This document shows positions 1,384-33,306 of a stretch of DNA of 34,116 nt, piece after piece. The notes beneath the pieces were generated by a model that had not been told where the DNA came from, ran no database searches, and saw nothing but the letters and a program-made list of their open reading frames with translations. Numbering within the stretch: the first letter of the stretch is position 1; the number at the start of each line of letters is the position of its first letter. This DNA is from an uncultured Acidobacteriota bacterium (GTDB lineage Bacteria; Acidobacteriota; Thermoanaerobaculia; UBA5066): NCBI GenBank assembly GCA_937888435.1, contig CALAQS010000330.1, positions 1-34,116 on the forward strand. Reading direction: 5' to 3'. The position numbers and the translations under genes were made by a program.

Positions 1384-2849
1384 TTCGCCGCGACGGGCGT
1401 CGCGAGCGTTGCCGCGATCTTCTCTCGCCACTCCCTCGCATCCTGGATGACCTTCGCCTCGTCGAGGGACGTGACGCGTTTGCCGTCCCAGAGGACGCGA
1501 CCTTCGACCATCGTGAGCGAGACGTCGCTTTCCTTGACGGTATAGACGAGGGTCGAGAACAGGTCCCACACGGGTTGCGTCCCCGCCCGGACGAGATCCA
1601 CCGCAACGAGGTCCGCTCGCTTCCCGGGCTCCAGCGAGCCGATCCGGTCGTCCAGCTTCATCGCCCTCGCGCCCTCGATCGTGGCCATCCGGAGGAGGTC
1701 CTTCGCCGGCAACACAGTCGGGTCCATCGTGGAGACTTTCGCAAGCTTCCCGGCGAAGTCCATCGCCTCCCACATGTCGAGGTCGTTGTTCGAGCCCGCG
1801 ACGCCGTCCGTCCCGAGGCCGACGGCGATGCCGGCACGCCGCGCCGCCACGACGGGTGCGACCCCGGACGCGAGCTTCATATTCGACTCCGGGTTGTGCG
1901 AGAGGCCGACGTGACGTTCGGAAAGGAGGCGGAGGTCGTCCGCGTCGCACCAGACGCAGTGGGCCGCAAGGACGTTCGGGCCCAAAAAGCCGATCGATTC
2001 GAGCCAATTCGTGGGCGTCGTCCCATACTTCTCGGCGAGCTGCCTCTGCTCGTCCCGCGTTTCGGAGAGGTGAATGAGAAGCGGCGCCTTGAATTCCAGC
2101 GCGAGTTCGCGCGCCGCAAGGAGGGACTCCTTCGAGTTCGTGAACGGCGCGTGCGGCGCGACCGCCGCGATGATGCGCGGGTGGCCCTTCCACTTCTCGA
2201 GGAACGCGCGCGTCACCGTGATCGATTCGGCAAGGTTCTTGTGGTCGGGCACCGGGAAGTCGAGCCACGTCTCGCCGAGGACGGCGCGCATCCCGCACCG
2301 GTCCACGGCCGACGCGACGTCCGACTCGTAGTAGTACATATCCGCGAACGTCGTCGTGCCGCCGCGGACCATCTCCGCGCAGGCGAGGAGCGTCCCGGCC
2401 TTCACGAAGTCGGGCGAGACGTTCTTGCTCTCGGCCGGGAAGATGAACTTCTTGAGCCAGTCCATGAGGGGCAGGTCGTCCGCGATGCCGCGCAGAAGGT
2501 TCATCGCGGCGTGCGTGTGCGTGTTGACCAATCCGGGCAGGACGACGGACCGGGGGCGGAAAATCTTCTGCTTCGGGGAATAACGAGAGAGCAGCTCCGA
2601 CGACGTCCCGACCGCGACGATCGCTCCGCCCTTGATCGCGACCGCACCCGGGGAAAAGACCCGGTCCGTCCCGTCCATCGTCATGACGTGCGCCGCCGTG
2701 ACGAGGGTGTCGATCGAAGAGACCGAAGATTTCTGCTTAGAAGGCGCATGGGGGGTCTGCGCGAGGGCGGCCGGAGAAACCGCGACCGCAAGCGCGATGC
2801 ACAGCGCCGCGACCAGCCAGGCGTTCCTCGCGCGCTGCGGGGTTCCCAC
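1380..2849 (-). CDS. Amidohydrolase, MTA/SAH (adenosine-type) deaminase-like, with N-terminal signal peptide
   Basis: VVLPGLVNTHTHAAMNLLRGIADDLPLMDWL, APHAPFT, GLGTDGVAGSNNDLDMWEAM motifs of the MtaD/TrzA family. Hydrophobic leader RNAWLVAALCIALAVAVSPAALAQ. Start codon uncertain (GTG 2849 or an upstream TTG). Confidence 0.85.
   Translation of the reverse strand: MGTPQRARNAWLVAALCIALAVAVSPAALAQTPHAPSKQKSSVSSIDTLVTAAHVMTMDGTDRVFSPGAVAIKGGAIVAVGTSSELLSRYSPKQKIFRPRSVVLPGLVNTHTHAAMNLLRGIADDLPLMDWLKKFIFPAESKNVSPDFVKAGTLLACAEMVRGGTTTFADMYYYESDVASAVDRCGMRAVLGETWLDFPVPDHKNLAESITVTRAFLEKWKGHPRIIAAVAPHAPFTNSKESLLAARELALEFKAPLLIHLSETRDEQRQLAEKYGTTPTNWLESIGFLGPNVLAAHCVWCDADDLRLLSERHVGLSHNPESNMKLASGVAPVVAARRAGIAVGLGTDGVAGSNNDLDMWEAMDFAGKLAKVSTMDPTVLPAKDLLRMATIEGARAMKLDDRIGSLEPGKRADLVAVDLVRAGTQPVWDLFSTLVYTVKESDVSLTMVEGRVLWDGKRVTSLDEAKVIQDAREWREKIAATLATPVAAK
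2725..2744 (-). repeat. AT-rich motif copy (CCTTCTAAGcagAAATCTTC, reads on minus)
   Basis: Exact CCTTCTAAG core; inside amidohydrolase CDS encoding PSKQKSS just after the signal peptide. Confidence 0.75.
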
Positions 2850-2860
2850 CGATTCATTTA

Positions 2861-2877
2861 CCTTCAAAGAAATCTTC
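2861..2877 (+). repeat. AT-rich motif copy CCTTCAAAGAAATCTTC plus TC-rich flank
   Basis: Preceded by CCGATTCATTTA, followed by TCGTCTCCTTCTCGTTCTTTCTCCC. Confidence 0.75.
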
Positions 2878-2902
2878 TCGTCTCCTTCTCGTTCTTTCTC
2901 CC

Positions 2903-3322
2903 TCACCTCGGCCCCTTGAATTCGAAGGCCAGCGGGAGCAGCGTCGTGAGCCGCATGCGGCTCACGACGCGCGCCGGCGTCGCGAGAATGACGTCGATGT
3001 CGCGGCACTGGTCCCAGAGCACCTGCCGGCACGCGCCGCAGGGCGATGCCGGCGGGTCGGTGTCCGTCACGACGGCGACCGCGCGAAACTTCCGCGCTCC
3101 CTCCGAGATCGCCTTGAACACGGCTGTCCGCTCGCCACACACGGTCAGGCCATACGACGCGGACTCGACGTTGCAGCCGCCGAAGATCGTGCCGTCCTCG
3201 GCGAGCAGCGCCGCACCGACCCGGAAGAGGGAGTACGGGGCCGAGGCGTTCTCGCGTGCCTTCTGCGCCGCGCCGACGAGGCGTTTTTCCTCGTCTGCCG
3301 TGAGGGGCCGGGTCGCGCTCAC
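2903..3322 (-). CDS. cdd: Cytidine deaminase
   Basis: GCNVESASYGLTVCGERTAVFKA and PCGACRQVL zinc-binding motifs; GTG start at 3322. Confidence 0.93.
   Translation of the reverse strand: MSATRPLTADEEKRLVGAAQKARENASAPYSLFRVGAALLAEDGTIFGGCNVESASYGLTVCGERTAVFKAISEGARKFRAVAVVTDTDPPASPCGACRQVLWDQCRDIDVILATPARVVSRMRLTTLLPLAFEFKGPR
2941..2970. repeat. 30-bp perfect palindrome GCGTCGTGAGCCGCATGCGGCTCACGACGC
   Basis: Checked base by base; lies within the 3' end of cdd. Confidence 0.95.
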
Positions 3323-3324
3323 TT

Positions 3325-4218
3325 CTACTTCGCCTTCTTCATGCGGGCCGCGGCGCGGGGATCCGGCAGAAACGCGTCTTCCGTCGCTCCCGACCGCCTG
3401 GTGCCGAGCGCCTGGACGAGAAAAGTCAGAAGGCGGACGAAGTCTCCTTTCACCCGCTGCGTCGTCTCGAGGACTTCCCGGTGGTCGAGCTTCTGCTTCG
3501 ACACGCCGGCAGCCATGTTCGTGATGCACGAGATGCCGAGGACGCCGACGCCCATCTGATTGAGCGCGATGACTTCGGGCACCGTGGACATGCCGACCGC
3601 ATGCGCGCCCCAGGCGCGGAAACCTCGGATCTCGGCCGGCGTCTCGTACGACGGGCCGTGGACACCGACATAGACGCCGCGCTTCAACGGGATGCGCTGC
3701 CGCTTCGCGACGGCGAGAGCGAGCGAGCGGAGGTCCTTGCGGTAGGCGTCCGACATGTCCGGGAAGCGCGGGCCGAGGTCTTCGTCGTTCGCGCCGATGA
3801 GGGGGTTCGTCCCGAACGCGTTGATGTGATCCTCGATGAGCATGAGATTGCCGGACTTGAAAGACCTGTCGATGCCGCCGGCTGCGTTCGTCACGATGAC
3901 TGTCCGGCAGCCGAGAAGGCCGAGGACGCGCGCGGGAAATACGACGGCCGGCATGGGGTGGCCTTCGTAGTAGTGGACGCGCCCCGAGAGAACGACCGTC
4001 GGAACGCCGCGCACCCTACCCGCCACGAGCGTCCCCGAGTGCCCGACCACGGCCGACGCCGGGAATCCCGGGATGTCGCCGTACAGGATGGTGACCCGCT
4101 CGTCTACGCCGTCGGCGAAGTCGCCGAGGCCGGAGCCCAGGATGACGCCGACGAGCGGCGGGTGCGGCAGCCGTCCGCGCAGCCACTCCGCGGCGCCCGA
4201 GAGCCTGGAATCCATCAC
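3325..4218 (-). CDS. punA: Purine nucleoside phosphorylase (class I, trimeric)
   Basis: GVILGSGLGDFAD, GRVHYYEGH, VTNAAGGI, GPSYETPAEIR, GMSTVPEVI motifs. Confidence 0.94.
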   Translation of the reverse strand: MMDSRLSGAAEWLRGRLPHPPLVGVILGSGLGDFADGVDERVTILYGDIPGFPASAVVGHSGTLVAGRVRGVPTVVLSGRVHYYEGHPMPAVVFPARVLGLLGCRTVIVTNAAGGIDRSFKSGNLMLIEDHINAFGTNPLIGANDEDLGPRFPDMSDAYRKDLRSLALAVAKRQRIPLKRGVYVGVHGPSYETPAEIRGFRAWGAHAVGMSTVPEVIALNQMGVGVLGISCITNMAAGVSKQKLDHREVLETTQRVKGDFVRLLTFLVQALGTRRSGATEDAFLPDPRAAARMKKAK

Positions 4219-4225
4219 GTGCCTC

Positions 4226-5473
4226 CTAGCCCATCAGAATGCCGGCGATCGCCGCCGTCATGAAGCTCACGAGGGAACCCCCGAGAAGGGCCCGGAAGCC
4301 CAGCCGCGCGAGGTCGGACTTGCGCGACGGCGCGAGGCCGCCGATCCCGCCGATCTGGATGCCGATCGACGAGAAGTTCGCGAAGCCGCACAGGGCGAAA
4401 GTCGCGATGACCTTTCCCTTCTCCGAGAGCGTGCCGACGACGTCCTTCATCATCGAGAAGGCGAAAAACTCGTTGATGACCGTCTTGTTCGCGATGAGAT
4501 TGCCCACCGTGGCCATGTCCTTCTCCGGCGCGCCGAGGCTCCACGCGAGCGGCCCGAGGACCCATCCGAAGATCGTTTGGAGAGAGAACGCCGGACGGCC
4601 CCAGAAGTGTCCGGCCCACCCGAGGAACCCGTTCAGCATCGCGATGAGCGCCACGAAGGCGATGAGCATCGCCGAGATGTTGAGGACGAGCATCATGCCT
4701 TGCGAGGCGCCGCTCGCGGCCGCGTCGATGAAGTTCGCGCTCGTCTTCTCGACCTGCATCTTCACGGTGCCCATCGTGGTGGGCGTCTCGGTCTCGGGCC
4801 AGAGGATCTTCGAGATGAGGAACGTGCCCGGGGCGGCCATCACGGAAGCCGTGATGAGGTACTTCAACGGCGCCCCCATCGTCACGTAGGCCAGCATGAC
4901 GGCGCCCGAGACGTGCGCCATACCCCCGATCATCATCGTCAGAAGCTCCGACGTCGTCATCGTCGCGATGTAGGGCGCGATGAGGACAGGCGCCTCCGTC
5001 TGTCCGATGAAGACGTTCGCCGCCACGCACAGCGCTTCGGCGCCGGAGACCTTCATCGTCTTCTGCATCCCCCACGCCATGCCTTTCACGATCACCTGGA
5101 TGATGCCGAAGTGGTAGAGGATGGAGAAGAACGCGCAGATGAAGATGACGATCGGCAGCACCTTGAAGGCGAAGATGAAGCCCCTGAAGGGCATGCCCGT
5201 CTTCTCGCCGAGGGTGTCCATCGGCCCCGCGAGCCACCCGAAAAGGAAGCCCGATCCCTGGTCGGCGAACGCGATGGCGTGAGAGACGCCGTTCGAGAAC
5301 GACTCCAGCGCCTGCTTGCCGCGTTCCCAGTAGAGAACGACGAGCCCGAACGCCATCTGGAGCGCGAACGCCCAGCCGACCGTGCGCCAGCGGATTGCCC
5401 GCCGGTTCTTCGAGAGCGCGAGCGCCACGGCGAGCACGACCGTCAGACCGATCAGACCGGTGAATCGCCCCAC
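4226..5473 (-). CDS. nupC: Concentrative nucleoside transporter (CNT/NupC family)
   Basis: Multi-TM protein with GQTEAPVLIAPYI, ANKTVINEFFAF and FALCGFANFSSIGIQIGGIGGLAP signatures of CNT carriers. Confidence 0.93.
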   Translation of the reverse strand: MGRFTGLIGLTVVLAVALALSKNRRAIRWRTVGWAFALQMAFGLVVLYWERGKQALESFSNGVSHAIAFADQGSGFLFGWLAGPMDTLGEKTGMPFRGFIFAFKVLPIVIFICAFFSILYHFGIIQVIVKGMAWGMQKTMKVSGAEALCVAANVFIGQTEAPVLIAPYIATMTTSELLTMMIGGMAHVSGAVMLAYVTMGAPLKYLITASVMAAPGTFLISKILWPETETPTTMGTVKMQVEKTSANFIDAAASGASQGMMLVLNISAMLIAFVALIAMLNGFLGWAGHFWGRPAFSLQTIFGWVLGPLAWSLGAPEKDMATVGNLIANKTVINEFFAFSMMKDVVGTLSEKGKVIATFALCGFANFSSIGIQIGGIGGLAPSRKSDLARLGFRALLGGSLVSFMTAAIAGILMG

Positions 5474-5586
5474 GAAGACCTCCGCTTGTCGAAAGAGGCC
5501 GAAGAATACTCCACGGCGGGCCGGTCTCCGGCGGCCGCGCTCAGAGCTCGAGCGTCCCGGCGAGGAAGGCGAAGCTCAGCGCTCCG

Positions 5587-6024
5587 TCATTTCTCGTGCC
5601 GGCCGTGGTAACTCTGGCAAAGATAGTGGATGCCGACCATCATGACGGCCTCCCACGCATGGTCGACCTCGAGAGACCACTCCGGATCGCACGCCTTCAC
5701 CGTCTCGAGGAGACTGTCGAGCCAGAAGTCGTAGAGGCTGGCTCCTACCTCGAGCTGCCCGGATCCATGCCGCACCGCGACGTCCGAAAGATAGGCGTCC
5801 GGCGTCTGTTTGCGGTCATGCGCGACGAGAAGAAGGTGATGGAAAGAAGCTTTCAAAGCGCGCTTCTGCCGCACGAAGTCCGTTCCCGCGAATTTCCCGG
5901 CCACCTCGGGCGACGAGGCGATGAACTTCTCGTAGAACAGGTCGAGAAAGCCCGGCCGCGCCTCGCACCTCGCGAGGCTCCTCTCGAAGAGGTCGAGCGT
6001 GCTGGAATCCACGATGTCGCTCAT
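5587..6024 (-). CDS. Single-domain globin family protein
   Basis: MSDIVDSSTLDLFERSLARCEARPGFLDLFYEKFIASSPEVAGKFAGTDFVRQKRALKASFHHLLLVAHD...; globin-like spacing of the distal region and HD/H helix. Confidence 0.75.
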   Translation of the reverse strand: MSDIVDSSTLDLFERSLARCEARPGFLDLFYEKFIASSPEVAGKFAGTDFVRQKRALKASFHHLLLVAHDRKQTPDAYLSDVAVRHGSGQLEVGASLYDFWLDSLLETVKACDPEWSLEVDHAWEAVMMVGIHYLCQSYHGRHEK

Positions 6025-6131
6025 CAGGAGCCTCCCGGGTGCCGGACGCAATCGTCATGTGAGAGCTGGTCGCAGTATAGGAGCAGACGGGCCAGCCGTA
6101 TGCCTCGCGTGAGCCTGCGTCGGGCGGCTCG

Positions 6132-7304: not shown

Positions 7305-7310
7305 GGCGCG

Positions 7311-8024: not shown

Positions 8025-8045
8025 GCGCACTTTCGAGGCCGCTCA

Positions 8046-8073
8046 GCAGGACGCGGCGCATGCCGCGTCCTGC
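8046..8073. repeat. Perfect 12-bp-arm inverted repeat, GCAGGACGCGGC-GCAT-GCCGCGTCCTGC
   Basis: Read directly; lies in the gap just downstream of the peroxiredoxin stop. No U-tract. Confidence 0.9.
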
Positions 8074-8097: not shown

Positions 8098-9048
8098 TTA
8101 GCGTTTCGACTTTTTCGCCGGCTTGCGAGACTTCTTCGCGGCCTTCTTCTTCTTCGGGGCGGACCTCTTCGCCGGTCTCCTCTTGGGAGCGGATTTCCTG
8201 GCCGCTTTCCTCTTCGGAGAGGACTTCCTCGCGGTTTTCTTCTTCGCGGCCTTCTTTTTCACGGCGACCTTTTTCTTCTTGGTCGCCGCCTTCTTCTTCG
8301 GAGAAGCCTTGGCCGCCGGAGCCGCTGGCTTCGGAGCGGGAGGAGCTGGCGCCTTCGGGGCCGCCGGAGCCGCTGGCTTCGGAGCGGGAGGAGCTGGCGC
8401 CTTCGGGACCGCCGGAGCCGCTGGCTTCAGAGCGGGTGGGGCTGGCGCCTTCGGGACCGCCGGAGCCGCTGGCTTCGGAGCCGGTGCGGGAGCTGCGGCC
8501 GCGGGAGCAGCGGATTTCGGCGCCACTTGAGGAGCGGGGGCCGGCGCGGGCTTCGGCGCGACCGCGACGCCCGCTGCCCGGAGTACCTGCTCGGCGTGGT
8601 GCTCGGTGTCGACCTTGTCGAAGACGTGGCGAATTCGCCCGTCCTTGCCCACGAGGAATGACTTGCGCAGCGGACCGACTCCCCACGCGGGATTCGGGTT
8701 CTGGCCCCAAGCGCCATACGCCTCATGGACGGCGTGATCGGCATCCGTCAGGAGCTCGAACGGCAGGTTGTACTTGGCAGCGAACGCATTGTGCGACGCG
8801 GAGTCGTCGCGCGAGATTCCGAGGACCTCGATCCCGGCGCTCTTCAGCTCGCCCCAGGAGTCGCGCAGGCTGCACGACTCGCGCGTGCATCCGGGAGTGT
8901 CGTCTTTCGGGTAGAAATAGATCAAAACGTCCTTGCTATTGCGATAGTCGTGCAGCGAAATTGTCTTGCCCGAGCGAGCCGGAAGCGAAAAATCGGGAGC
9001 GGTCGAACCGGCGCTCAGGGGCGTGGAAGCCTTCATTTCATCGGCCAT
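8098..9048 (-). CDS. bcp: Bcp-type peroxiredoxin (thiol peroxidase) with C-terminal Lys/Ala/Pro-rich histone-H1-like tail
   Basis: YFYPKDDTPGCTRESCSLRDSW catalytic motif; followed by ~150 aa APAPKPAAPAVPKAPAPP... and KKKAATKKKKVAVKKKAAKKKTARKSSPKRKAARK... Confidence 0.9.
   Translation of the reverse strand: MADEMKASTPLSAGSTAPDFSLPARSGKTISLHDYRNSKDVLIYFYPKDDTPGCTRESCSLRDSWGELKSAGIEVLGISRDDSASHNAFAAKYNLPFELLTDADHAVHEAYGAWGQNPNPAWGVGPLRKSFLVGKDGRIRHVFDKVDTEHHAEQVLRAAGVAVAPKPAPAPAPQVAPKSAAPAAAAPAPAPKPAAPAVPKAPAPPALKPAAPAVPKAPAPPAPKPAAPAAPKAPAPPAPKPAAPAAKASPKKKAATKKKKVAVKKKAAKKKTARKSSPKRKAARKSAPKRRPAKRSAPKKKKAAKKSRKPAKKSKR
8321..8488. repeat. 48-bp tandem repeat, about 3.5 copies
   Basis: GCCGCTGGCTTCGGAGCGGGAGGAGCTGGCGCCTTCGGGGCCGCCGGA repeats from 8321, 8369, 8417 and (partly) 8465; encodes the PAAPAxPKAPAPPAxK repeats. 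Confidence 0.9.
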
Positions 9049-11846: not shown

Positions 11847-11906
11847 CTCCGCTCCCCTCAGCGCGATTCAGAATTTCTTACAAAGTGAATGTGGGCCGTC
11901 CTTTTC

Positions 11907-14120
11907 TCATTCGAAGAACTTCTTTCCTGTGTTGGCCATCTCGATCAGCAGCGGCGCCGGGACGAAACGCTCGCCTTTTTCCTTCGCGAGCTTCTGGAGA
12001 CCCTCGACGATCTCCTTCGCGCCCACGGAATCCGCATACGCGCACAGGCCGCCGCGGAAGGGCGGGAATCCGGTGCCGAAGATCATCGCGAGGTCGAGCT
12101 TCGCGGGGCTCGCGACGATGCTTTCGGACAGGCAGTACGCGGCCTCGTTGATCATCGGGAGGATCAGGCGCTCTTCGATTTCGGAAGAAGAAAGATTCTT
12201 AGAAGGTGAAGAAAGGCCCAGCTCGCCATACACCGCCTGGTCCGGTCCGCCGCGCTTGTCCTTTTCGTAGAAATAAAATCCCTTCCCGACCTTCCGGCCG
12301 AGGCGGCCGGCCGCGACGAGCTTTTCGAGCGCCGGATCCGCGGGCATGCGCGCCGGGAAGGCGGCCGCCATCGTCCCGCCGGCCTTTGCGGCGACGTCGA
12401 TGCCGACGTCGTCGAGAAGCTCGATCGGCCCTACCGGCATTCCGAACGTGCGCATCGCCTTGTCGATGGACTCCATCGAATTGCCTTCGAGCAAGAGCCG
12501 CACCGCCTCGCCGATGTAGGGGCTGAGGATGCGGTTCACGAGGAAGCCGGGCGAGTCCTTCACGACGACCGGCGTCTTCCCCAGCTTTTTCGCGAGATCG
12601 AAGACCGTTGCCGTCACCTCGGGGTCGGTCTTCACGCCGTAGATGACCTCGACGAGAGGCATCTTGTGCACGGGGTTGAAGAAGTGCATTCCCACGACGC
12701 GCTCGGGGTGCGCCGCTTTCGAGGCGATCTCGGTGATCGGAAGCGTCGAGGTGTTGGAGGCGAAGATGGCCTTCGCGGGCACGACGCGCTCCCAGTCCGC
12801 GAGAACCGCCTGCTTGACGGCCATCTTCTCGAGCACCGCCTCGATCGTGATGTCGCAGCCCTCGAAGCCCGCGTACTCGAGCGACCCGCCGAGGAGCGCC
12901 ATCTTCCTCGCGAAATCGGCGCGGGTCATCCGGCGCTTTTTGAGCAGCTCCTTCCAGATACGCGCCGCCTGCGCATATCCCAGTGCGAGCGCCTCGGGCT
13001 TGATGTCCTTCATACGCGTCGGATAGCCCTTGTCGGCCGCGAGCTGGGCGATGCCGCCTCCCATGACGCCGGCGCCGAGGACGCCCACGCGCGCGATCTT
13101 CCGCGGTCTGACTCCGGCGCCGGGCGCCCCGAGAGCTTCGACGCCCGTCTCCTTTTTGACCTCTTCCATCCGGAAGAAGAGGCCCATCAGGCTCCGCATG
13201 ACCGGCGTGCCGATGAGCGATCGGACGCCTTCGACCTCGAATTCGAGCGCCTTCGCGAAATCTTCGCCGAACCCTTTCTCGACGACACCGAGCGCCGTGA
13301 GCGGCGCCGGATACTGGCCCTTCGTCTCTTTCAGGACCGACTGGCGCGCTTTCGAGAAGACGATGCCTTTGCCGGCCCCCTCGAGGAATTTCTCCACGAG
13401 CTTCGGCTCGTGGACGCGTGCCGGCGCGCCGCCCGGACCCGCGTTCGAGCGCTTTTTCGTGCCGAACTTCCCCCGGGCGAACGCCTTCGCCCAATCCCCG
13501 AGGATCGCCTGCGGGACGACCTCGTCCACGAGGCCGATCCGCTTCGCACGCTTCGCGTCGAGAACCTTCCCCGCGAGGATGACGTCGAGGGCGTTTGCGA
13601 GGCCGATCATGCGTGGGAGGCGCGTCGTGCCGCCCCAGGCCGGCAGGATGCCGAGCTTGATCTCCGGAAGGCCGATCTGGGTCTTCGGCGAGTCGGACGC
13701 GAGCCGCCAGTCCATCGCGAGAGCGGTCTCGCAGCCGCCGCCCACGCAAGCGCCGTCGATCGCGGCGACCGTGGGAAACGGCAGATTCGCGAGCTTGTTG
13801 AAGGTCCGGTGCCCGCCCCGGATCATCTCGGGATCCGCGTTCCGGTCGGCCTTTGCGATCTCGTTCACGTCCGCGCCGGCGATGAAGACTCCCGGCTTGG
13901 CCGAGAGAAGCAGGAGCGCTTTCACGTCGGAACGCGCCGCGAGGCCGTCGACGACGCGCTCGAACTCCCTCATGACGGGCGTCGAGAACTTGTTCACCTT
14001 CTCGCCTGGCGTGTCGAAGACGAGAAGGGCGAGGCCATCCGGCTCGACCGTGAGCCGGAAGGGTGAGAGCGAGCCGGCCGAAGCCGTGGCCGGGACTGTT
14101 TCAGCGACGAGCGTGGACAT
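11907..14120 (-). CDS. fadJ: Fatty-acid oxidation multifunctional protein: enoyl-CoA hydratase + 3-hydroxyacyl-CoA dehydrogenase
   Basis: ECH motif AAIDGACVGGGCETALAMDWRLAS, HAD motif VGVLGAGVMGGGIAQLAA and FNPVHKMPLVEVI; start ATG at 14120. Confidence 0.93.
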   Translation of the reverse strand: MSTLVAETVPATASAGSLSPFRLTVEPDGLALLVFDTPGEKVNKFSTPVMREFERVVDGLAARSDVKALLLLSAKPGVFIAGADVNEIAKADRNADPEMIRGGHRTFNKLANLPFPTVAAIDGACVGGGCETALAMDWRLASDSPKTQIGLPEIKLGILPAWGGTTRLPRMIGLANALDVILAGKVLDAKRAKRIGLVDEVVPQAILGDWAKAFARGKFGTKKRSNAGPGGAPARVHEPKLVEKFLEGAGKGIVFSKARQSVLKETKGQYPAPLTALGVVEKGFGEDFAKALEFEVEGVRSLIGTPVMRSLMGLFFRMEEVKKETGVEALGAPGAGVRPRKIARVGVLGAGVMGGGIAQLAADKGYPTRMKDIKPEALALGYAQAARIWKELLKKRRMTRADFARKMALLGGSLEYAGFEGCDITIEAVLEKMAVKQAVLADWERVVPAKAIFASNTSTLPITEIASKAAHPERVVGMHFFNPVHKMPLVEVIYGVKTDPEVTATVFDLAKKLGKTPVVVKDSPGFLVNRILSPYIGEAVRLLLEGNSMESIDKAMRTFGMPVGPIELLDDVGIDVAAKAGGTMAAAFPARMPADPALEKLVAAGRLGRKVGKGFYFYEKDKRGGPDQAVYGELGLSSPSKNLSSSEIEERLILPMINEAAYCLSESIVASPAKLDLAMIFGTGFPPFRGGLCAYADSVGAKEIVEGLQKLAKEKGERFVPAPLLIEMANTGKKFFE
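12192..12206 (-). repeat. AT-rich motif copy CCTTCTAAGAATCTT
   Basis: Exact core inside fadJ encoding PSKNLSSS. Confidence 0.75.
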
Positions 14121-22454: not shown

Positions 22455-22970
22455 GTGGCGTTGGCGCTCACACTTTTATCCGTTTTCACGCTCGTGGGGC
22501 TCGTCTTGTCGGCGGCGTCCGGTTGGGCCCTCTCGCACGCGCTCGGCGGATCGGTCACCGCCGCGCGTCACATCGCCGTCGCGATTCCCACGGTGCTCTT
22601 CTCCCTCTTCACGCAGTCGATGGTCCTCTTTTTCTTCATCGGCACGGGAAAGCTCCTCAAGGAGGCCGCGTCGAAGCGCCCGGACGCGGCCGGGCGCGAC
22701 TTCATCCTGGCCCGCGTGCGCGGCTTCAAGCTGAGGACTTCGGCCCTCTGCACCTTCGCTCCGCTGTCCGCTTTAGCCACCGGCCTCCTCGGCGTGACCG
22801 CGCACACCGGCAAGACGCCTGTCTCTCTGCACCTCGTCGCCGCGGCCCTCTGCGTGCTCCTGCACGTCGTTGCCTTCGGCCGCGAGGTCGTGGCAATGGC
22901 GGAAACGAACCAGCTCATGGACGAAGCCGCCACGGCCCTCCCGCCGGGGCCCGAGGCCGCGGCACCGTGA
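22455..22970 (+). CDS. Hypothetical membrane protein
   Basis: Several hydrophobic segments; GTG start; overlaps the start of the next CDS (GTGA). Confidence 0.65.
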   Translation: MALALTLLSVFTLVGLVLSAASGWALSHALGGSVTAARHIAVAIPTVLFSLFTQSMVLFFFIGTGKLLKEAASKRPDAAGRDFILARVRGFKLRTSALCTFAPLSALATGLLGVTAHTGKTPVSLHLVAAALCVLLHVVAFGREVVAMAETNQLMDEAATALPPGPEAAAP

Positions 22971-23770
22971 GCGACGCGAGGAACGCCGCGAAGGTCGCAC
23001 TCGTCACAGGCGGGGCGAAGCGGCTCGGCTTCGAGTTCGCGAAAGCCCTGGCGAAGAACGGGTATTCGATCGCCCTTTCCTATAGAAGCGATGCCGAAGA
23101 AGCGGGTCGCGCAGTAGATTTTCTTAGAAAGGAAGAGGGGGCCCGCGCACAGGCGTTCCGTGCCGACTTCTCCGCCGACGACGCGCCCGATTCACTATTC
23201 AAAGAAATCTTCTCTTCCTCCCTTTTCTCCTCTTCCTCATCTTCACCTTCGTCCGCGCCCCCGTCTTCTTCCCCCGCGCCCCGCCTCGACGCCCTCGTCC
23301 ACGCGGCGTCGCCGTGGATCCCGAAGCCGTTCTCTTCCGTGTCTCTTGCCGACTGGGAGGCGATCTTTCGCGCCGGCCCCCGCGCGGCGTTCTTCCTCGC
23401 GCAGGCGGCGGCGCCGGCGCTGGCGCGCTCCTCCGGGTCGATCCTCTTCATTTCCGACATCGCCGCGACGCAGGCCTGGCCCTCGCACGTCCCGCATGCG
23501 GTCGCGAAAGCCGCGATCAACGCTCTCGTGCGCAACCTCGCCGTCGCGCTCGGTCCGGGGGTGCGGGTGAACGCGATCGCGCCGGGAGTCGTCATGCCGC
23601 CCGCGGACATGAGCGCGGAGGCCGTCGCCGCCCTCGTCGCCAGGACGCCCCTCGCACGCAAAGTCGACGTCGCGGACCTCACCGCGATGGCCATCGCCGT
23701 GCTCGAAAACCGCTCGATGACCGGTCAGATCGTCACCGTGGACGCGGGGAAATCCGTCAGCTCAGAGTGA
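22967..23770 (+). CDS. SDR-family oxidoreductase (pteridine-reductase-like) with Ser-rich insertion
   Basis: VALVTGGAKRLGFEFAKALAKNG, INALVRNLAVALGPGVRVNAIAPG, GQIVTVDAG; GTG start. Insertion FKEIFSSSLFSSSSSSPSSAPPSSSPA sits before RLDALVHAAS. Confidence 0.88.
   Translation: MSDARNAAKVALVTGGAKRLGFEFAKALAKNGYSIALSYRSDAEEAGRAVDFLRKEEGARAQAFRADFSADDAPDSLFKEIFSSSLFSSSSSSPSSAPPSSSPAPRLDALVHAASPWIPKPFSSVSLADWEAIFRAGPRAAFFLAQAAAPALARSSGSILFISDIAATQAWPSHVPHAVAKAAINALVRNLAVALGPGVRVNAIAPGVVMPPADMSAEAVAALVARTPLARKVDVADLTAMAIAVLENRSMTGQIVTVDAGKSVSSE
23116..23132 (-). repeat. AT-rich motif copy, CCTTTCTAAGAAAATCT on minus
   Basis: Near-consensus, inside the SDR CDS. Confidence 0.55.
23187..23240 (+). 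repeat. AT-rich motif copy CCCGATTCACTATTCAAAGAAATCTTC followed by TC-rich tract
   Basis: Shares CCGATTC...TTCAAAGAAATCTTCTC with the 2847-2880 copy; encodes the start of the Ser-rich insertion in the SDR. Confidence 0.75.
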
Positions 23771-23779: not shown

Positions 23780-23816
23780 CCTGACGAGCGTCGTTCAATT
23801 GACGAGGAGCGTCAGG
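23780..23816. terminator. Imperfect inverted repeat between convergent genes (possible bidirectional terminator)
   Basis: CCTGACG...CAATTG...CGTCAGG spanning the 41-bp convergent gap. Confidence 0.4.
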
Positions 23817-24408
23817 GGCCTGGCGCCGCCTCGAACTCCCCTGCCTCCTGGGCGAGCTTTCGCGCGAACAGGGTCGCGAAGGCGACGCGGTCGGCCGCGA
23901 GGCGCCTGCCGGCCGGGGTCGCGAAGCGGGCCGACTCCATCTTCTCCACGATCTCCTGCGCCATCTCGGCGAGCGTCATGCGCTCGCGCGCGCCGGCGGC
24001 GAGAAGCTGCGTGACTCCGTATGCGCCGACGGATTCGAGGAGCATCGCGTCGTGGACGATCCTCTCCTCGGGGCTCTGCGGGTCGGCCTCGTAGCGGTCG
24101 AGGGAGGAGACGAGGATTCGGATTTCTTCGAAGGGAATCCGGAGGGAGCGCAGGAGCAGATCCTCTCGGCTGTCCGGCGAGATGCGGCGCGCAGCAGGAA
24201 GCCCCGCGAACGCGGTGATGAGAAAGAGCCGGTCCTCGTCGACCTCCTCCGCGCAGCCAGGGCGACGCACACCTTCTAAGAGATTCTTCGCGATCTTCAG
24301 CCGGCGCTCGACGAACCCGAAGTTCGTCATCCCGTCAAGGGAGACCGAAAGCGGCCTCACGAAGTCGAGGATGCGCTCGCGGGCCGCGGCGCCAAGGTTG
24401 GGCGTCAC
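23812..24408 (-). CDS. HD-hydrolase-like protein lacking a clear N-terminal H...HD metal motif
   Basis: EERIVHDAMLLESVGAYGVTQLL resembles the C-terminal 'EAKIVQDADRLDAIGA' region of YedJ-type HD proteins; no clear HD dyad upstream. Confidence 0.5.
   Translation of the reverse strand: MTPNLGAAARERILDFVRPLSVSLDGMTNFGFVERRLKIAKNLLEGVRRPGCAEEVDEDRLFLITAFAGLPAARRISPDSREDLLLRSLRIPFEEIRILVSSLDRYEADPQSPEERIVHDAMLLESVGAYGVTQLLAAGARERMTLAEMAQEIVEKMESARFATPAGRRLAADRVAFATLFARKLAQEAGEFEAAPGP
24272..24290 (+). repeat. AT-rich motif copy CCTTCTAAGAGATTCTTCG
   Basis: Exact core, in the HD-like CDS. Confidence 0.7.
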
Positions 24409-25459: not shown

Positions 25460-25476
25460 GCGGCGCTTCGCGCCGC
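25460..25476. repeat. GC palindrome GCGGCGC-TTC-GCGCCGC
   Basis: Perfect 7-bp arms in the BMP/ATPase intergenic gap. Confidence 0.9.
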
Positions 25477-25494
25477 CGATTCTTCGAAGGGTGT

Positions 25495-27150
25495 GTGAGC
25501 GAAGTGCCCGGGCTCGGAACTGGCGGTTCCGCTGAGCCGATTCCCTTTTACCCTTCTAAGAAATCTTCATCTTCGGCTCCCGCGCTTGAACTTCGGCGCA
25601 TTTCGAAGCGCTTCGGCGAGACCCAGGCTCTTTCCGAAGCAGATCTCGTCGTGTTTCCCGGTGAGATCCACGCTCTCCTCGGCGAGAACGGCGCGGGGAA
25701 ATCCACGCTCGTGTCGATCGCAGCAGGGCGGCTCGTGGCCGACTCGGGCGAAATCCTGCGCGGCGGATCGCAGGCGTCGTATCGCAATGCCCGCGACGCC
25801 CGCCACGCCGGGCTCGTTCTCGTGCCGCAGCACGACCTCCTCATCGGCGCGGCGAGCGTGGCCGACAACCTCGCGTTCCTCGATCCCGCCGCGCCTTTCT
25901 TCGAATCCGCCGCGGCGCGGCGCGCCCGTGTCGGGCGGCTCGCGCAGGCGTTCGGGCTCGAGCTCGGCGATGCGGACGCCCGCGCCGACGCGTTGCCCGT
26001 CGGGACCCGCCAGCGCATCGAGATCGCGGGCGCGCTCGCAGGCGACCCGGACGTCCTCATCCTCGACGAGCCAACGGCCGTCCTCTCCCCTGACGAGACG
26101 GCAGCCCTCTTCGCTTCCCTGCGCAAACGTGCCGACGCCGGCGCCGCCGTCGTTCTCATCACCCACCGGCTCGCCGAGGTCTTCGCCGGCGCCGACCGGC
26201 TGACGCTGCTCGCGCGGGGGCGGTCGGTCAAGACCTGCCGCGTGAGCGAGACGACACCGCAGGAGATCGGGGGACTCCTGCTGACGAACACAGAGGGAGA
26301 GAAGAATTTCTTAGAAGGGGTTTGGGGCGCACGGGCGCTCGATTCACGCGCGGACACACCCGGCGGCCGAAGCCAAACTCACTCTTCTGAGCATGCGGCG
26401 CAAAGCGCCGCGACTCAGCCTCTCCCAAGCCTCGTGCTGACCGGATTCGCGCCAGACGAAGCGCGAGCGGTCCGAGCAGAAAGAATTTCTCTTTCCCTCC
26501 TTCCTGGCGAGATCCTCGTTCTCCTCGCGATCGACGGCAACGGCGCCGACACGATCGCCCGCGCCATCGCGGGACTGGAACGATTCTCGGGACGCGTCGA
26601 GGTCGGCGGCGTGCCGCTGCCGCTCTCGGGCGACCCGCTCGCGTTTCGCGCCGCTGGCGGGGCGTTCGTGCCCGCGGACCGGCGCGAGGAAGGCCTCGTC
26701 GCGGCTCTGTCTCTCTCGGAGAACCTCGCGCTCCCGAATCCTCCCGGCAGCGTCTTCCTCGACCGCCCGGCGATGCGCGCTCATGCCGAAGAGCGGCTGC
26801 GCGCGTTCGGCGTCCGCTACGCCTCTCCCGCCGCCCTGGCCGGCTCCCTCTCCGGCGGGAATCAGCAGAAGACCGTCCTCGCACGCGAGCTGGCGCACCG
26901 TCCCGGCGTTCTCGTCGCCGTCCATCCGACGCGAGGCCTCGACCTCGCTTCCGCCGCCGCGGTCAGAAGCCGGATTCTCGACGCGTGCCGCTCCGGGACG
27001 GCCGCTCTCGCCGTCACGGCTGATCCCGACGAGGCGCAGCTCTTCGGCGCGCCGCTTCGCGTCGTCTATCGCGGCCGCCTCTCGGCCGCGCTCGAGCCCA
27101 CGACGCCCCCTGCGGCGCTCGGACGCCTGATGGCCGGACTCGAAGGATGA
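25495..27150 (+). CDS. Nucleoside ABC transporter ATPase (tandem ABC domains) with long interdomain insertion
   Basis: LLGENGAGKSTL Walker A, LILDEPTAVLSPDE Walker B, second-domain LSGGNQQKTVLARELAHRP and DGNGADTIARAI; ~45 aa Ser/Thr/Ala-rich extra linker GEKNFLEGVWGARALDSRADTPGGRSQTHSSEHAAQSAATQP. Confidence 0.92.
   Translation: MSEVPGLGTGGSAEPIPFYPSKKSSSSAPALELRRISKRFGETQALSEADLVVFPGEIHALLGENGAGKSTLVSIAAGRLVADSGEILRGGSQASYRNARDARHAGLVLVPQHDLLIGAASVADNLAFLDPAAPFFESAAARRARVGRLAQAFGLELGDADARADALPVGTRQRIEIAGALAGDPDVLILDEPTAVLSPDETAALFASLRKRADAGAAVVLITHRLAEVFAGADRLTLLARGRSVKTCRVSETTPQEIGGLLLTNTEGEKNFLEGVWGARALDSRADTPGGRSQTHSSEHAAQSAATQPLPSLVLTGFAPDEARAVRAERISLSLLPGEILVLLAIDGNGADTIARAIAGLERFSGRVEVGGVPLPLSGDPLAFRAAGGAFVPADRREEGLVAALSLSENLALPNPPGSVFLDRPAMRAHAEERLRAFGVRYASPAALAGSLSGGNQQKTVLARELAHRPGVLVAVHPTRGLDLASAAAVRSRILDACRSGTAALAVTADPDEAQLFGAPLRVVYRGRLSAALEPTTPPAALGRLMAGLEG
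25537..25575 (+). repeat. AT-rich motif copy GCCGATTCCCTTTTACCCTTCTAAGAAATCTTCATCTTC
   Basis: Full consensus CCTTCTAAGAAATCTTC at 25552-25568, near the N-terminus of the ABC ATPase. Confidence 0.85.
26301..26318 (-). repeat. AT-rich motif copy CCTTCTAAGAAATTCTTC
   Basis: Exact core with one inserted base relative to consensus; in the ABC ATPase interdomain linker. Confidence 0.8.
26387..26418. repeat. GC palindrome CTGAG-cat-GCGGCGC-AAA-GCGCCGC-ga-CTCAG
   Basis: Perfect inner 7-bp arms plus outer 5-bp arms, inside the ABC ATPase linker. Confidence 0.9.
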
Positions 27151-29026: not shown

Positions 29027-29028
29027 GG

Positions 29029-29628
29029 CTACCGGTCCGGAGGACGCTGATCCGTAGGCCTCTGGTCCGGCGGCCGCTGCTGGGACCGCTCGCGGCCGGC
29101 GCCCGGTCCGGCTCCGCCGCCCGGTGAATGTTCGCCCCCGGCCGCGCCGCGCCTCTCCATCAGGCGTTGCGCGCGCCATTCCTCGCGCCGGTCGAGGACC
29201 TGCTGCCACTGCGCGGCCGAAAGGACGTCCCTCTGCTCAAGGAACATCATCGTGGCCGCCTTGCGCAGCTTGAGCCGCGACTGCTCGAGCGCGTCGACGG
29301 CCGCCGAGACCTTCCTGGCATCGGAGTCTTTCTTCGCGACGAGCTCCTCGACGTCGATCTGGCGGCGCTCCACGTCGGCCTTGAGATCCACGAACTCGCG
29401 CCGGCGGCGCGAGAAGATGTCTTCCAGCTTCGCCTGTTGCTCGGCGGTGAGATTGAGCATCTGGACGATGCGCGGACGCTTCCACCACTTGCCCGGGGGC
29501 GCCTCCGGCATCTGGGCTTCGGCGGGGCGCGCAGGCGCGGCCGCAAAAACCACGAACGCGGCCACCGCAAAACCTCTCCCGACGCGTCTTATCGCATGTC
29601 TTATCGCATGTCTCATCGCGTGTCTCAT
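29029..29628 (-). CDS. Spy/CnrX-like (LTxxQ-type) periplasmic protein
   Basis: Signal peptide; LNLTAEQQAKLEDIFSRRRREFVDLKADVERRQIDVEELVAKKD... helical Spy/CpxP/CnrX-like segment; C-terminal PDQRPTDQRP repeats. Confidence 0.75.
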   Translation of the reverse strand: MRHAMRHAIRHAIRRVGRGFAVAAFVVFAAAPARPAEAQMPEAPPGKWWKRPRIVQMLNLTAEQQAKLEDIFSRRRREFVDLKADVERRQIDVEELVAKKDSDARKVSAAVDALEQSRLKLRKAATMMFLEQRDVLSAAQWQQVLDRREEWRAQRLMERRGAAGGEHSPGGGAGPGAGRERSQQRPPDQRPTDQRPPDR

Positions 29629-29633
29629 AGCGT
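29586..29633. repeat. 4 x 12-bp tandem repeat at the gene start
   Basis: GTCTTATCGCAT GTCTTATCGCAT GTCTCATCGCGT GTCTCATAGCGT; encodes MRHAMRHAIRHAIRR on the minus strand. Confidence 0.95.
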
Positions 29634-30170
29634 CTCTTCCACGACCAAACCGGCGAGCGAGGAGTCCTCGAGCGCGCGGTCGACCGAGACGAGCAGCTCG
29701 TCGTCCGAGGCGTCGTTCACGGCGGCAGGAGTCACCTCCCTGACCTCGCTCGTCGTCACGGTCGCCGTCTGCACGGGAGGCGCCGTCGAACCGGAGCGCA
29801 GGAGCGAGAGGCCGCCCACGAGGAGGAGCGCGGCCGCGAGGCTCGAGAAGGCGAGGGCCGGATGCCGGAGGATGCCGCGCATCCGCGGCGGGAAGACGCC
29901 CACCTCGGGCACGGGCGCGTCCACCGGTGCGCCGGCGCGCACGCCCGCCATCGTCGCCGCGGCCTGCGCCTCCCAGAAGCCGGACGGCAGGTCGTCCACG
30001 GCCCCGCTCACGGCACCGCGGTCGAGGAGCCAGGCGTCGTGCAGCGCGGCGACGCTCTCCTGGCAGTCAGCGCACGTCGCGAGGTGCTCTGGCATGGCGC
30101 CGGCGCGGTCGTCGGCCGGGAACACACGCTCGACGATCTCGTCGGGGGTGAGGTGGCGGGTCGGATTCAT
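29625..30170 (-). CDS. Zinc-finger (zf-HC2-like) anti-sigma factor with one TM
   Basis: MPEHLATCADCQESVAALHDAW (HxxxCxxC) and TM LAFSSLAAALLLVGGLSLL; adjacent to the ECF sigma with ATGA overlap. Confidence 0.85.
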   Translation of the reverse strand: MNPTRHLTPDEIVERVFPADDRAGAMPEHLATCADCQESVAALHDAWLLDRGAVSGAVDDLPSGFWEAQAAATMAGVRAGAPVDAPVPEVGVFPPRMRGILRHPALAFSSLAAALLLVGGLSLLRSGSTAPPVQTATVTTSEVREVTPAAVNDASDDELLVSVDRALEDSSLAGLVVEETL

Positions 30171-30859
30171 CGGAGGTCCTCCAGGCGCTCCCGCAGCTTG
30201 CGGGCCGCGCGAAAAAGGTGTGACTTGATCGTGCCCTCGTCGAGGCCGGTGACTACCTTGATCTCGGCGATGGACTTTTCCTCGTAGTGTTTCATGACGA
30301 AGACCGCTCGCTGACGCGGCGACAGGGCCACGAGCGCTTCGGCGATCCGGCGCCGGATATCCCGCGACAGGAGGTCGCGCTCGGGGGACGTGCCGTCGGC
30401 CGGATCGAAAGCGGCCGGAAGCTCGGGGCCGTCGTCGTCCGGGTCGGCGCGCAGCTCCGAGAAGGACACGACCGGCTTGCGGCGGCGGATGTGGTCTCGC
30501 ACGGCGTTGATCGCGATGCGCGTGAGCCACGTCTCGAAAGCCGACTGCCCCTTGAACTCGGGCAGCGCGCGAAAGGCCTTCACGAAGACGTCCTGCGTGA
30601 TGCCGTCGGCGTCGGCCGGATCGCGAAGGAGCGTGTAGACGAAGCGCGTGATCCGCTTCTGGTATGTGACGACGAAATACTCGAAGGCGTCCACGTCGCC
30701 CGCGACGACGCGCGTGAGGATCTCGGACTCGAGCTCCCGCTTCGCGGCGCGCTCGTCGACGCTCACGGATCGCGCCGCCTGTCTCGAGGGTTTGTCATGG
30801 CGAGCGTGTCTCTTGGCTCCGGAAAACGTCAGGACAGGGGCCAGCGCGGTTCCGCTCAC
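30167..30859 (-). CDS. ECF RNA polymerase sigma factor
   Basis: Region 2 DAFEYFVVTYQKRITRFVYTLLRDPADADGITQDVFVKAFRALPEFKGQSAFETWLTRIAINAVRDHIRRRK, region 4 LVALSPRQRAVFVMKHYEEKSIAEIKVVTGLDEGTIKSHLFRAARKLRERL. Start may be an internal GTG. Confidence 0.94.
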   Translation of the reverse strand: MSGTALAPVLTFSGAKRHARHDKPSRQAARSVSVDERAAKRELESEILTRVVAGDVDAFEYFVVTYQKRITRFVYTLLRDPADADGITQDVFVKAFRALPEFKGQSAFETWLTRIAINAVRDHIRRRKPVVSFSELRADPDDDGPELPAAFDPADGTSPERDLLSRDIRRRIAEALVALSPRQRAVFVMKHYEEKSIAEIKVVTGLDEGTIKSHLFRAARKLRERLEDLR

Positions 30860-30937
30860 GCCGATTGGACGCGCTTTTCTCTCCCATGGTTTACGGCATA
30901 TCCGCCTGTCGGAAATGAGGATAGCCCGCCCGACCGC

Positions 30938-31651
30938 TCAGCGCCTCCAGGGTCTCGCGAAGGCCTTGAAATCGTCCCACAGAACGATCCTCCGCCGGAG
31001 CCAGCGCACCGCGCGGACCGCTCGAGCCGGAGGAAGATCCGGCAGGAAGTAGCTGGAAAGAAGGAGGTTGATGTCTTCGAGCCGATTCAGCCCGGGGCGC
31101 GCGAGGTCCCTGTAGCGAGACAGCGGCGGAACCGGGGCTTTCCCCACCCGGGCCCGGTTCAAGTCCACGAGCCAGAGCTGGAGCGTCCCGGCCTCACCCG
31201 TCACGAGAACGTTCCCATCGGTGAAGTCGCGAAAGAACACCCCCGCGTCGTGCATCCGCCGCCCCAGCCTTCCGAGGGCCACGACGACCTCCTCGAACGA
31301 AAACGGCAACGGCGGACCGGGCCGCCGCGGGTCGTCCCGATGGAGGAACCAAACGCGAATCTGCGCCGCCCCTTCGAGCCTGCGCGCCACGTACCAGCTT
31401 TCGTCGCCCACGATCTCGGCGGCCAGCGGCTCGGGGGTCGCGAGAGAACGAGCGAGAAGAGCCCGGGCCGTGGCGAAGGAGCGCACGGCCTTGGGCGTCG
31501 ACAGGCGCTGCCGGAGGTCGAGCGGCACCTTCTTGACGACGACGGGAATGCGCTCGCCGCCGCGCTCGAGAGTCGCGTTCACGACCTCGTGCCGCCCGGG
31601 GTGGCGTTCGGGGGCTTCCTCGAACACGAGAGAGTCGTAGAGCGGCGTCAT
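30938..31651 (-). CDS. LPS-kinase-like (Kdo/WaaP-type) protein
   Basis: VVVKKVPLD, LGRLGRRMHDAGVFFRDFTDGNVLV, LWLVDLNRARV kinase-like motifs; ATG 31651 overlaps the GT39 stop. Confidence 0.75.
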   Translation of the reverse strand: MTPLYDSLVFEEAPERHPGRHEVVNATLERGGERIPVVVKKVPLDLRQRLSTPKAVRSFATARALLARSLATPEPLAAEIVGDESWYVARRLEGAAQIRVWFLHRDDPRRPGPPLPFSFEEVVVALGRLGRRMHDAGVFFRDFTDGNVLVTGEAGTLQLWLVDLNRARVGKAPVPPLSRYRDLARPGLNRLEDINLLLSSYFLPDLPPARAVRAVRWLRRRIVLWDDFKAFARPWRR

Positions 31652-33306
31652 GGCCGCGCCAGGAGCAGGGCCTCGTCGCCGCCCACCCGCTGCCGGTCCA
31701 GGACGACGAGCCGCGAGAGGCGGGCGTCCGTCCAGTGCCGCCGCTCGCTCTCGTCGGCGAGCACGAGGGCTCCCGGCGTCCTCTCGACCCATTCCGCGAG
31801 CGCGGCGTCTCTCTTGAAGTGCTCGGTCTTCCGCCGGAGCACGAGAATCGGGTAGCAGCGGTACGTCTCGCCGAAGTACGCGAGCGGCTCGCCGTGGGAC
31901 ACGCGCGGACGGAGGCGCTCGTAAAAGGGCTTCCCGGTCTTCAGGGTGTCGATCGCCGGGAAGACCACCGCGCCCGCCGCGACCTCCCCCGCCGCGAGAG
32001 CCGCGGCAAGAGCGAGCAGCGCGGGAACCGCTTCGCGTCTTCGTCTGACGAGAACGGCGATCGTCCCGGCGGCCCCGAGGCCGATCGGGATCGCGGCGAA
32101 CGGCGCGAGGCCAGCCTGTTCGACCGCGAACCGGCGCGCGGCCGGTGCGAGCGCCGCCGCCCCGATGAAGAGGAGAATCGCCGCGAACGCGACCCAGCTA
32201 CGCACCGCCAAGAGCAGCCCGCGGCTACCCGCCCTAGCCCGGCGTTCCGCCTCCACGGCGAGCGCCGCAACGAGCACCGCCGCGAATGGATACGCGGCTA
32301 GCAAGTACTTGCCCTGCTTTGCCTGCGAGAGAGAGAGGAACACGAAGCTCACCGCGGCGGCCGTCGTCGCGAACCGCAGCTCCGGCCGCTCGCGAAGCAG
32401 GCCCGCGCGCGCGAGGACGAAGGGTGCCGCAAGCGCGAGCGCCGTCCACGGGAAGAAGTCGCTCCACATGCTCTCGCAGTAGAACCACCACGGCTGGATG
32501 TGGTCGAACGCCCGGAAGAAGCGGTTCCAGTTCTGGTTCACGACGAGGTCGTAGGCGTACGCGGGCCCGCCCGCCCGTGCCGCGAAGAAATACCAGGGGA
32601 CGACGAGGAGAAGAAAGACGAAAATGCTTCGAAGGGGTTGCAGACGGCCAAGGAGGCGCAGGGACCTGGCCGTCGCGCAGCGGGTGAGGACGACCAGTCC
32701 CACGATGGCGATCGCGAGAGGGCCCTTGGTCAGCACGGCGAGCGCGATCGAGACACGCAGCACCCAGAGCCAGCGGGTGCCGCGCCCCTCTTCACCTTCT
32801 AAGAAGAACACCGAAACCAGACTGAGCATCAGCAAGCAGGAGAAGAGAGCGTCGACCTGGAGAAACTGGGACTGCCAGAAGACGATCGGCGCGACCGCGG
32901 TGGCGGCGCCCGCGACGAGGGCCTCGCGTTCCCCGCCGCGCCGGCCGGCGAAGGCCGCGGCGCAAAAGACGAGCGCGGCGCCTGCGAGAACGGAGGGCAG
33001 GCGCGTCGCGAAAGGCTTCACGTCGCCGCCGGAGAGCGGCGTCGTCGCCGCCACGGCCCAGTAGAACAGGATCGGCTTCTCCGAGTAAGGCTTCCCGTTC
33101 TCGTAAGGGAGGAGGAGGCTCCTGTGCTCGAGCATTTCCCGCACGTGCTCGGCGAAATCGGGCTCGTCGGGGGCCCAGAAGTCGCGCCCCGCCGCGGCGA
33201 CGAGGTACAGCACGGCCGCCGCCGCTGCAAGAAGGAGGGGGATGCGGAGGGAACCTGGTGCCTCTCTCAAGCGCCCTAACGATACGACGCCGCCTCCGGA
33301 TCGCAT
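31648..33306 (-). CDS. GT39/ArnT-like membrane glycosyltransferase
   Basis: DFWAPDEPDFAEHVREMLEHRSLLLPYENGKPYSEKPILFYWAVA and many TM segments. Confidence 0.88.
   Translation of the reverse strand: MRSGGGVVSLGRLREAPGSLRIPLLLAAAAAVLYLVAAAGRDFWAPDEPDFAEHVREMLEHRSLLLPYENGKPYSEKPILFYWAVAATTPLSGGDVKPFATRLPSVLAGAALVFCAAAFAGRRGGEREALVAGAATAVAPIVFWQSQFLQVDALFSCLLMLSLVSVFFLEGEEGRGTRWLWVLRVSIALAVLTKGPLAIAIVGLVVLTRCATARSLRLLGRLQPLRSIFVFLLLVVPWYFFAARAGGPAYAYDLVVNQNWNRFFRAFDHIQPWWFYCESMWSDFFPWTALALAAPFVLARAGLLRERPELRFATTAAAVSFVFLSLSQAKQGKYLLAAYPFAAVLVAALAVEAERRARAGSRGLLLAVRSWVAFAAILLFIGAAALAPAARRFAVEQAGLAPFAAIPIGLGAAGTIAVLVRRRREAVPALLALAAALAAGEVAAGAVVFPAIDTLKTGKPFYERLRPRVSHGEPLAYFGETYRCYPILVLRRKTEHFKRDAALAEWVERTPGALVLADESERRHWTDARLSRLVVLDRQRVGGDEALLLARP
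32789..32808 (+). repeat. AT-rich motif copy TCTTCACCTTCTAAGAAGAA
   Basis: Exact core; in a loop between TM helices of GT39 (FFLEGEE). Confidence 0.7.

Follow-up and report, generated by a model that had tools for sequence, protein, structure and literature searches.

In the papers cited here, self-DNA uptake signals are described for only two families, the Neisseriaceae, as DNA uptake sequences (DUS), and the Pasteurellaceae, as uptake signal sequences (USS) (PMC1939737, PMC2397512, PMC2346458). In each family a single dominant, directional and lineage-specific motif is over-represented in both orientations, lies mostly at permissive positions of core genes with enrichment between genes, is conserved at the nucleotide level, and arises in place by mutation and recombination (PMC1939737, PMC2397512, PMC2346458). 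The copies accumulate by drive in these permissive core-gene sites, and are themselves highly conserved (PMC1939737, PMC2397512). Here we describe a motif with the same general features, and with drive as a proposed cause of its accumulation, in an uncultured Acidobacteriota bacterium (Thermoanaerobaculia; UBA5066). It was found on contig CALAQS010000330.1 of assembly GCA_937888435.1, and the 34,116 nt of this stretch are referred to below as the window. Unlike DUS and USS, the motif is 26 bp long, is AT-rich within a 68% GC genome, is present in fewer copies, and is mostly arranged as divergent pairs 30-150 bp apart, where DUS and USS occur as single sites or as inverted pairs ≤21 nt apart.

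Within the window, CCTTCTAAG occurs exactly six times, each at the position and on the strand reported by the initial annotation (dinucleotide shuffles: mean 0.05, maximum 1), and no word is more strongly over-represented there than TTCTAAGAA/CCTTCTAAG. The 17-mer matches five times with ≤3 mismatches, compared with 0.00 expected. Alignment of 98 copies revealed a larger unit than the real but only 17-bp motif first proposed: a 26-bp directional sequence, CCCTCTTCACCTTCTAAGAAATCTTC, whose 5' edge is C-rich and whose 3' tail, roughly 15 nt long, is rich in T and C. Scanning the window with a position weight matrix (PWM) added copies at 11869 (minus), 11899 (plus), 24118 (minus) and 24263 (plus). 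Matches to the PWM or to core positions also bear out the close variants named previously at 2861 (plus), 23116 (minus), 23197 (plus) and 25478-25490 (minus).

The source genome (3.70 Mb, 366 contigs) contains CCTTCTAAG 109 times, compared with 47 for the reversed word, which upholds the excess seen locally. At least one of the 109 belongs to tRNA-Arg(TCT), where it forms the anticodon arm, and another is this same tRNA sequence truncated at the end of a contig. A tRNA origin of the 9-mer was rejected, as this anticodon arm carries the 9-mer and not its flanks. The 21-mer TTCACCTTCTAAGAAATCTTC (≤3 mismatches) is present 45 times versus 1 for the reversed control, and 36 to 80 copies were identified in each of four species of one Thermoanaerobaculia genus. 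Ten further genomes of the family lack the 21-mer, and outside the genus it was detected in only one of 57 genomes, as a lone stray 3-mismatch match. Multiple exact 18-mers occur in Thermoanaerobaculia bacterium CH5 (JAMQPJ), Acidobacteria palsa_351 (PLZI01) and Acidobacteriota bin03 (JARXKK). These three records are metagenome-assembled genomes, and all of the genomes used appear to be fragmented assemblies of this kind. In three genus members, a blind word count ranked TTCTAAGAA first among all 9-mers (30-33 versus 0.4-0.5 expected). No comparable over-represented word was found in 160-400 kb samples of three sister genera, so equivalent motif "dialects" were rejected for these samples. The host lineage is a small group of soil Acidobacteriota, and the motif is genus-specific, a restriction that the initial annotation missed.

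PWM matches scoring ≥14, a type of threshold that favors strong copies, number 54, 70 and 68 in 404, 425 and 394 kb of three species (reversed PWM: 6, 5 and 9), counts that are biased upward because the contigs were picked for carrying matches. With a PWM trained without the genus member G003, 387 kb of held-out G003 contigs taken in length order gave 31 matches versus 4 for the reversed matrix, a lower density than in the selected contigs. Extrapolating via the genome-wide 9-mer counts, we estimate roughly 170-250 copies per genome. Chance or base composition as the cause was rejected on the basis of the shuffles, the blind word count and the reversed-word, reversed-PWM and held-out counts. 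A phage origin was rejected, given that no exact 22-mer matches were found in viral contigs. A search of open-access literature found no description of such a motif for Acidobacteriota, although an absence of this type is weak evidence.

The unit consists of two copies in inverted, divergent orientation with the tails pointing outward, a geometry that also went unnoticed in the initial annotation. Neighboring copies ≤250 bp apart are oriented minus-plus in 48 cases, plus-minus in 0, plus-plus in 6 and minus-minus in 3, and the held-out 387 kb contain 8 minus-plus neighbors and 0 in other orientations. An inverted partner lies 10-260 bp 5' of 61.5% of 143 strong copies, compared with 2.8% of control windows, and none of the 143 has such a partner within 210 bp on its 3' side. 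The gap from arm to arm has a median of 82 bp (10-90% range, 34-145 bp). Spacing shows no period near 10.5 bp, in the held-out set as well, and DNA looping with a helical phase was rejected for this reason. At related loci, the 20-nt bin directly 3' of the motif contains another box, TTCGRACNT, 9 times (0.1 expected), perhaps representing an inverted half-site that overlaps and has degenerated. Beside a tRNA-Leu gene at locus L212 (G002:C113, ~54269), the genus member G002 carries ~100 bp that are missing in two relatives; almost all of this extra stretch forms an imperfect palindrome, in which motif arms flank a GC-rich center.

Inverted, paired ends in several hundred copies could indicate decayed mobile elements, with the arms as terminal repeats, similar to miniature inverted-repeat transposable elements (MITEs), Rickettsia palindromic elements, or the repetitive extragenic palindromic (REP) sequences and their paired form (REPIN) that are associated with RAYT transposases. 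Some species-specific insertions or losses are clean gaps, a point in favor of such elements, and as with Rickettsia palindromic elements and other MITEs, copies occur in frame within protein genes and some are insertions in loops. However, the interiors of the units (71% GC, compared with 42% for the arms) have no common sequence: similarity is mostly between orthologous pairs, and the few other BLAST matches are short and weak. Spacing is continuous, and there is no minus-plus excess at 250-3000 bp, so no full-length transposon with these ends is indicated. REP/REPIN sequences are also short inverted pairs present in hundreds of copies, but they are extragenic and come with a transposase, whereas here most copies are intragenic, the arms do not covary, and the Y1/RAYT domain PF01797 has 0 matches in four genomes of the genus, with sister genera positive. 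Insertion of a mobile element as a unit is largely refuted by these observations, and we consider descent from decayed elements improbable. The analogy to Rickettsia palindromic elements offered in the initial annotation is not supported in the strict sense, given the unrelated interiors and several copies that are ungapped substitutions in conserved protein segments.

Those substitutions show how several copies arose. Genes that already existed acquired the motif through base changes in place and, in some cases, through insertion, as comparison with sister genera shows. In alanyl-tRNA synthetase (AlaRS), the genus reads CTT CAC CTT CTA AGA ATC; eight outgroup genomes align here with no gap and have, for example, CAG CAC CAC GTG AAG GTG. 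A second copy is likewise an ungapped substitution, whereas a third lies within a genus-specific insertion of 13-14 residues, a point in favor of mobile elements. Across the comparisons, some empty sites are clean gaps and other copies are ungapped substitutions, a length-neutral origin that sets the motif apart from MITEs. A recognizable copy is retained in 71% of 175 ortholog comparisons (~80% flank identity). Losses and gains frequently take the form of clean gaps, and indels are abundant in the pyrimidine tail. These comparisons, and the codon-position comparisons below, are not fully independent, as several involve paralogous kinases.

Constraint acts at the nucleotide level, even where the protein must adapt. 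In 62 gap-free comparisons between species, identity at third codon positions is 78% within the motif versus 63% for flanking sequence (p=1e-7), and codon positions 1 and 2 do not differ between motif and flanks. The preferred center is CTAA, but in the two frames in which it would form a stop, the sense frame with TAA and the antisense frame with TTA/TAG, it is present in 0/29 and 0/15 copies, and these copies have CGAA or CAAA instead. The initial annotation described copies as always falling in a stop-free frame but missed that the freedom from stops comes from exchanging the central T in frames where CTAA would terminate translation. As far as we have seen, the pair-orientation, third-position and stop-avoidance results are independent of contig bias, gene calls and PWM thresholds.

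These patterns also bear on whether the DNA similarity is a by-product of linker peptides (PSKKSSS, FLEGE) or of rare-codon pauses. Many copies in loops do encode Ser/Lys-rich peptides. However, coding copies occur on both strands and in all six frames, 36/160 copies are intergenic, outgroup-typical AlaRS residues were replaced to suit the DNA motif, and third positions exceed the flanks while positions 1 and 2 do not. With the base change that avoids stops, this refutes a cause at the peptide or codon level, to which we assign almost no probability, and agrees with the initial expectation that the encoded peptides are not the cause. The description of a dispersed, frame-tolerant family in unrelated genes was borne out genome-wide.

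Overall, 124/160 copies (78%) are in coding sequence, which makes up 94% of the DNA according to approximate gene calls from a custom codon-usage script. Host genes, named from sequence, include alanyl- and cysteinyl-tRNA synthetase, RNase R, alanine racemase, biotin carboxylase and protein kinases. Copies are placed in permissive spots of core genes and in intergenic gaps via substitution and short indels, and are kept between species. Sense copies have no strong positional bias within genes, and antisense copies have a mild 5' bias. Paralogous Ser/Thr kinases (L054, L064, L067, L086, L096, L111 and L181) have the motif in common at a KVLPEEF segment (EEFFEGEE), indicating that some copies multiplied through gene duplication.

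Alternatively, the unit could function in mRNA, as a hairpin or an RNA-processing mark. A divergent pair reads as a purine arm followed by a pyrimidine arm in every transcript; the unit is identical in both transcripts, so its orientation would not need recognition at the DNA level, and 40/52 pairs lie inside a single gene. Arguing against this, arms of the same pair are no more complementary than arms of different pairs (p=0.71), a gap-tolerant test pointed in the opposite direction, and the held-out set also lacks covariation. That same-pair arms are no more alike than others argues against base pairing between them, and the compensatory changes typical of an RNA hairpin were not found. Some units are flanked by genes in convergent or divergent orientation, and unpaired copies have no sense bias (28 sense versus 23 antisense). 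No Rfam family matches at the copies in the window, where the sole Rfam match is a tRNA gene at the right end (34040-34113). We consider an mRNA-level element unlikely. A GC-rich perfect hairpin does occur 3' of several copies (window 25460-25490 and 26383-26410; L007; L011), for example CCTTCGAAGAATC-GGCGGCGCGAAGCGCCGC and CCTTCTAAGCAYGCGGCGC...GCGCCGCG, and copies of this subclass possibly act as terminators.

In the window, nearly all copies can be assigned to divergent pairs, and four of the partners are weak. The sites are as follows, with host genes compared with Pfam:

Pair 1, left arm: 2728..2753, minus; exact 9-mer, PWM 3.9 only, because CAG is inserted after CTAAG; in an amidohydrolase gene (1380-2849, minus), just past its signal peptide.
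Pair 1, right arm: 2852..2877, plus; PWM 36.7; intergenic; gap 98 bp; in G003 both the arm and the sequence around it are lost.
Pair 2, left arm: 11869..11894, minus; PWM 24.3; intergenic; a clean gap in three other species.
Pair 2, right arm: 11899..11924, plus; PWM 18.7; overlaps the FadJ C-terminus (KKFFE-stop).
Pair 3, left arm: 12190..12215, minus; PWM 36.3; in FadJ (11907-14120, minus), encoding SSPSKNLSS; retained in three other species.
Pair 3, putative degenerate right arm TTTTCGTAGAAATA: 12262..12275, plus; 9/14 core positions; in the GFYFYE segment of FadJ.
Pair 4, left arm: 23115..23140, minus; PWM 17.5; in an SDR gene (22967-23770, plus), encoding VDFLRKEEG.
Pair 4, right arm: 23187..23212, plus; PWM 17.7; gap 46 bp; SLFKEIFSS at an SDR helix position.
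Pair 5, left arm: 24118..24143, minus; PWM 9.9; in an open reading frame (23812-24408, minus) with no Pfam match.
Pair 5, right arm: 24263..24288, plus; PWM 12.2; gap 119 bp; exact 9-mer at 24272.
Pair 6, weak left arm CCTTCGAAGAATCG: 25477..25490, minus; 10/14 core positions; intergenic, between Bmp and an ABC ATPase.
Pair 6, right arm: 25543..25568, plus; PWM 42.0; upstream of the ABC ATPase core, with a perfect 17-mer; G002 lacks the two arms of this pair and the interior between them.
Pair 7, left arm: 26302..26327, minus; PWM 24.3; between the ABC ATPase halves (25651-27150, plus); missing in G002.
Pair 7, degenerate right arm TCTTCTGAGCATGC: 26383..26396, plus; intact as CCCTTCTAAGCA in G002 and G003.
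Pair 8, weak left arm CCTTCGAAGCATTT: 32622..32635, minus; 10/14 core positions; in a PMT/GT39 gene.
Pair 8, right arm: 32786..32811, plus; PWM 25.5; in PMT/GT39 (31648-33213, minus); CCCTCTTCACCTTCTAAG identical in three species.

Of these copies, those at 2861 (in the 2850-2902 gap) and 25552 (upstream of the ABC ATPase core) are outside predicted coding sequence, and the host of 24272, previously called HD-like, has no Pfam match. Elsewhere in the window, 24-bp tandem repeats at 8131-8532, in an open reading frame at 8098-9048 (minus), encode a low-complexity tail that appears to be Ala/Lys/Pro-rich.

Strand symmetry, fixed orientation, the absence of arm covariation and nucleotide-level constraint together point to a protein that recognizes two divergent sites in duplex DNA. 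We see about an even chance that the pairs constitute a bipartite genomic address, read by a genus-specific protein complex and responsible for the genus-wide rewriting of core coding sequence, with a role of either the uptake or the chromosome-structuring type. Between these two roles, origin in place, permissive core-gene positions, genus-wide occurrence and turnover match the pattern of uptake sequences and lead us to favor, tentatively, a genus-specific two-site uptake-type signal on double-stranded DNA that accumulated like DUS and USS. Under this proposal, each copy would be a directional recognition site of ~26 bp in duplex DNA, restricted to one genus, and the unit would be the divergent pair, tails outward, 30-150 bp apart. 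A genus-specific protein assembly may read both sites simultaneously. DNA bearing the motif would be preferentially taken up and recombined, so that copies build up by molecular drive as for Neisseria DUS and Haemophilus USS, but with a two-site signal in place of a one-site signal.

Several observations weigh against an uptake role. Homologues of ComEC are found in all four motif-bearing species but equally in most sister genera without the motif, so their presence does not discriminate. Known DUS and USS are single-site, whereas most copies here are paired. Inverted repeats account for about 10% of DUS/USS (PMC1939737), and inverted DUS pairs ≤21 nt apart leave transformation unchanged (PMC2397512). 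The roughly 170-250 copies fall far short of the ~1,500-2,000 of DUS/USS, or ~1 per kb. The missing helical phasing does not sit easily with a rigid complex that binds duplex DNA at two sites. The suggestion of a DUS/USS-like motif in the initial annotation thus fits how copies arise and are retained, and TTCTAAGAA is the dominant word in three species, but it does not fit the unit or the density. As published uptake signals are single-site and pairing is a tested difference here, we do not class the motif as DUS or USS.

The main rival, which we rank next and consider rather unlikely, is a chromosome-organizing or genome-maintenance signal. In this case an intracellular protein (nucleoid-associated, or involved in segregation, repair or anti-restriction) would bind divergent pairs, and selection would keep the sites. 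Nucleotide-level conservation, strand symmetry, a divergent two-site geometry independent of genes, sites in essential genes and genus-wide retention are all consistent with such a role, and a cooperating dimer or short filament would account for pairs without arm covariation. However, single copies are gained and lost between species, and in-place mutation at permissive sites is the pattern of drive. No replication-strand polarity was seen, with the limit that origin and terminus cannot be placed in 366 contigs. Known chromosome-organizing sites such as parS, matS, SlmA/Noc sites, KOPS and Chi are shorter, palindromic or strand-polarized. They too are dispersed within coding sequence and have an intracellular protein reader, but none of them combines two directional sites of 26 bp in a divergent pair.

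For annotation, SPSKKSSS or FLEGE peptides in these genomes should be read as shaped by a DNA motif. If the uptake reading is correct, the genus would provide an independent case of an uptake-type signal, in a distant phylum and with paired geometry, in which to test how such signals start, how they spread, and how they constrain proteins. If the pairs organize the chromosome instead, they would reveal an unrecognized DNA-binding system, detected from sequence alone.

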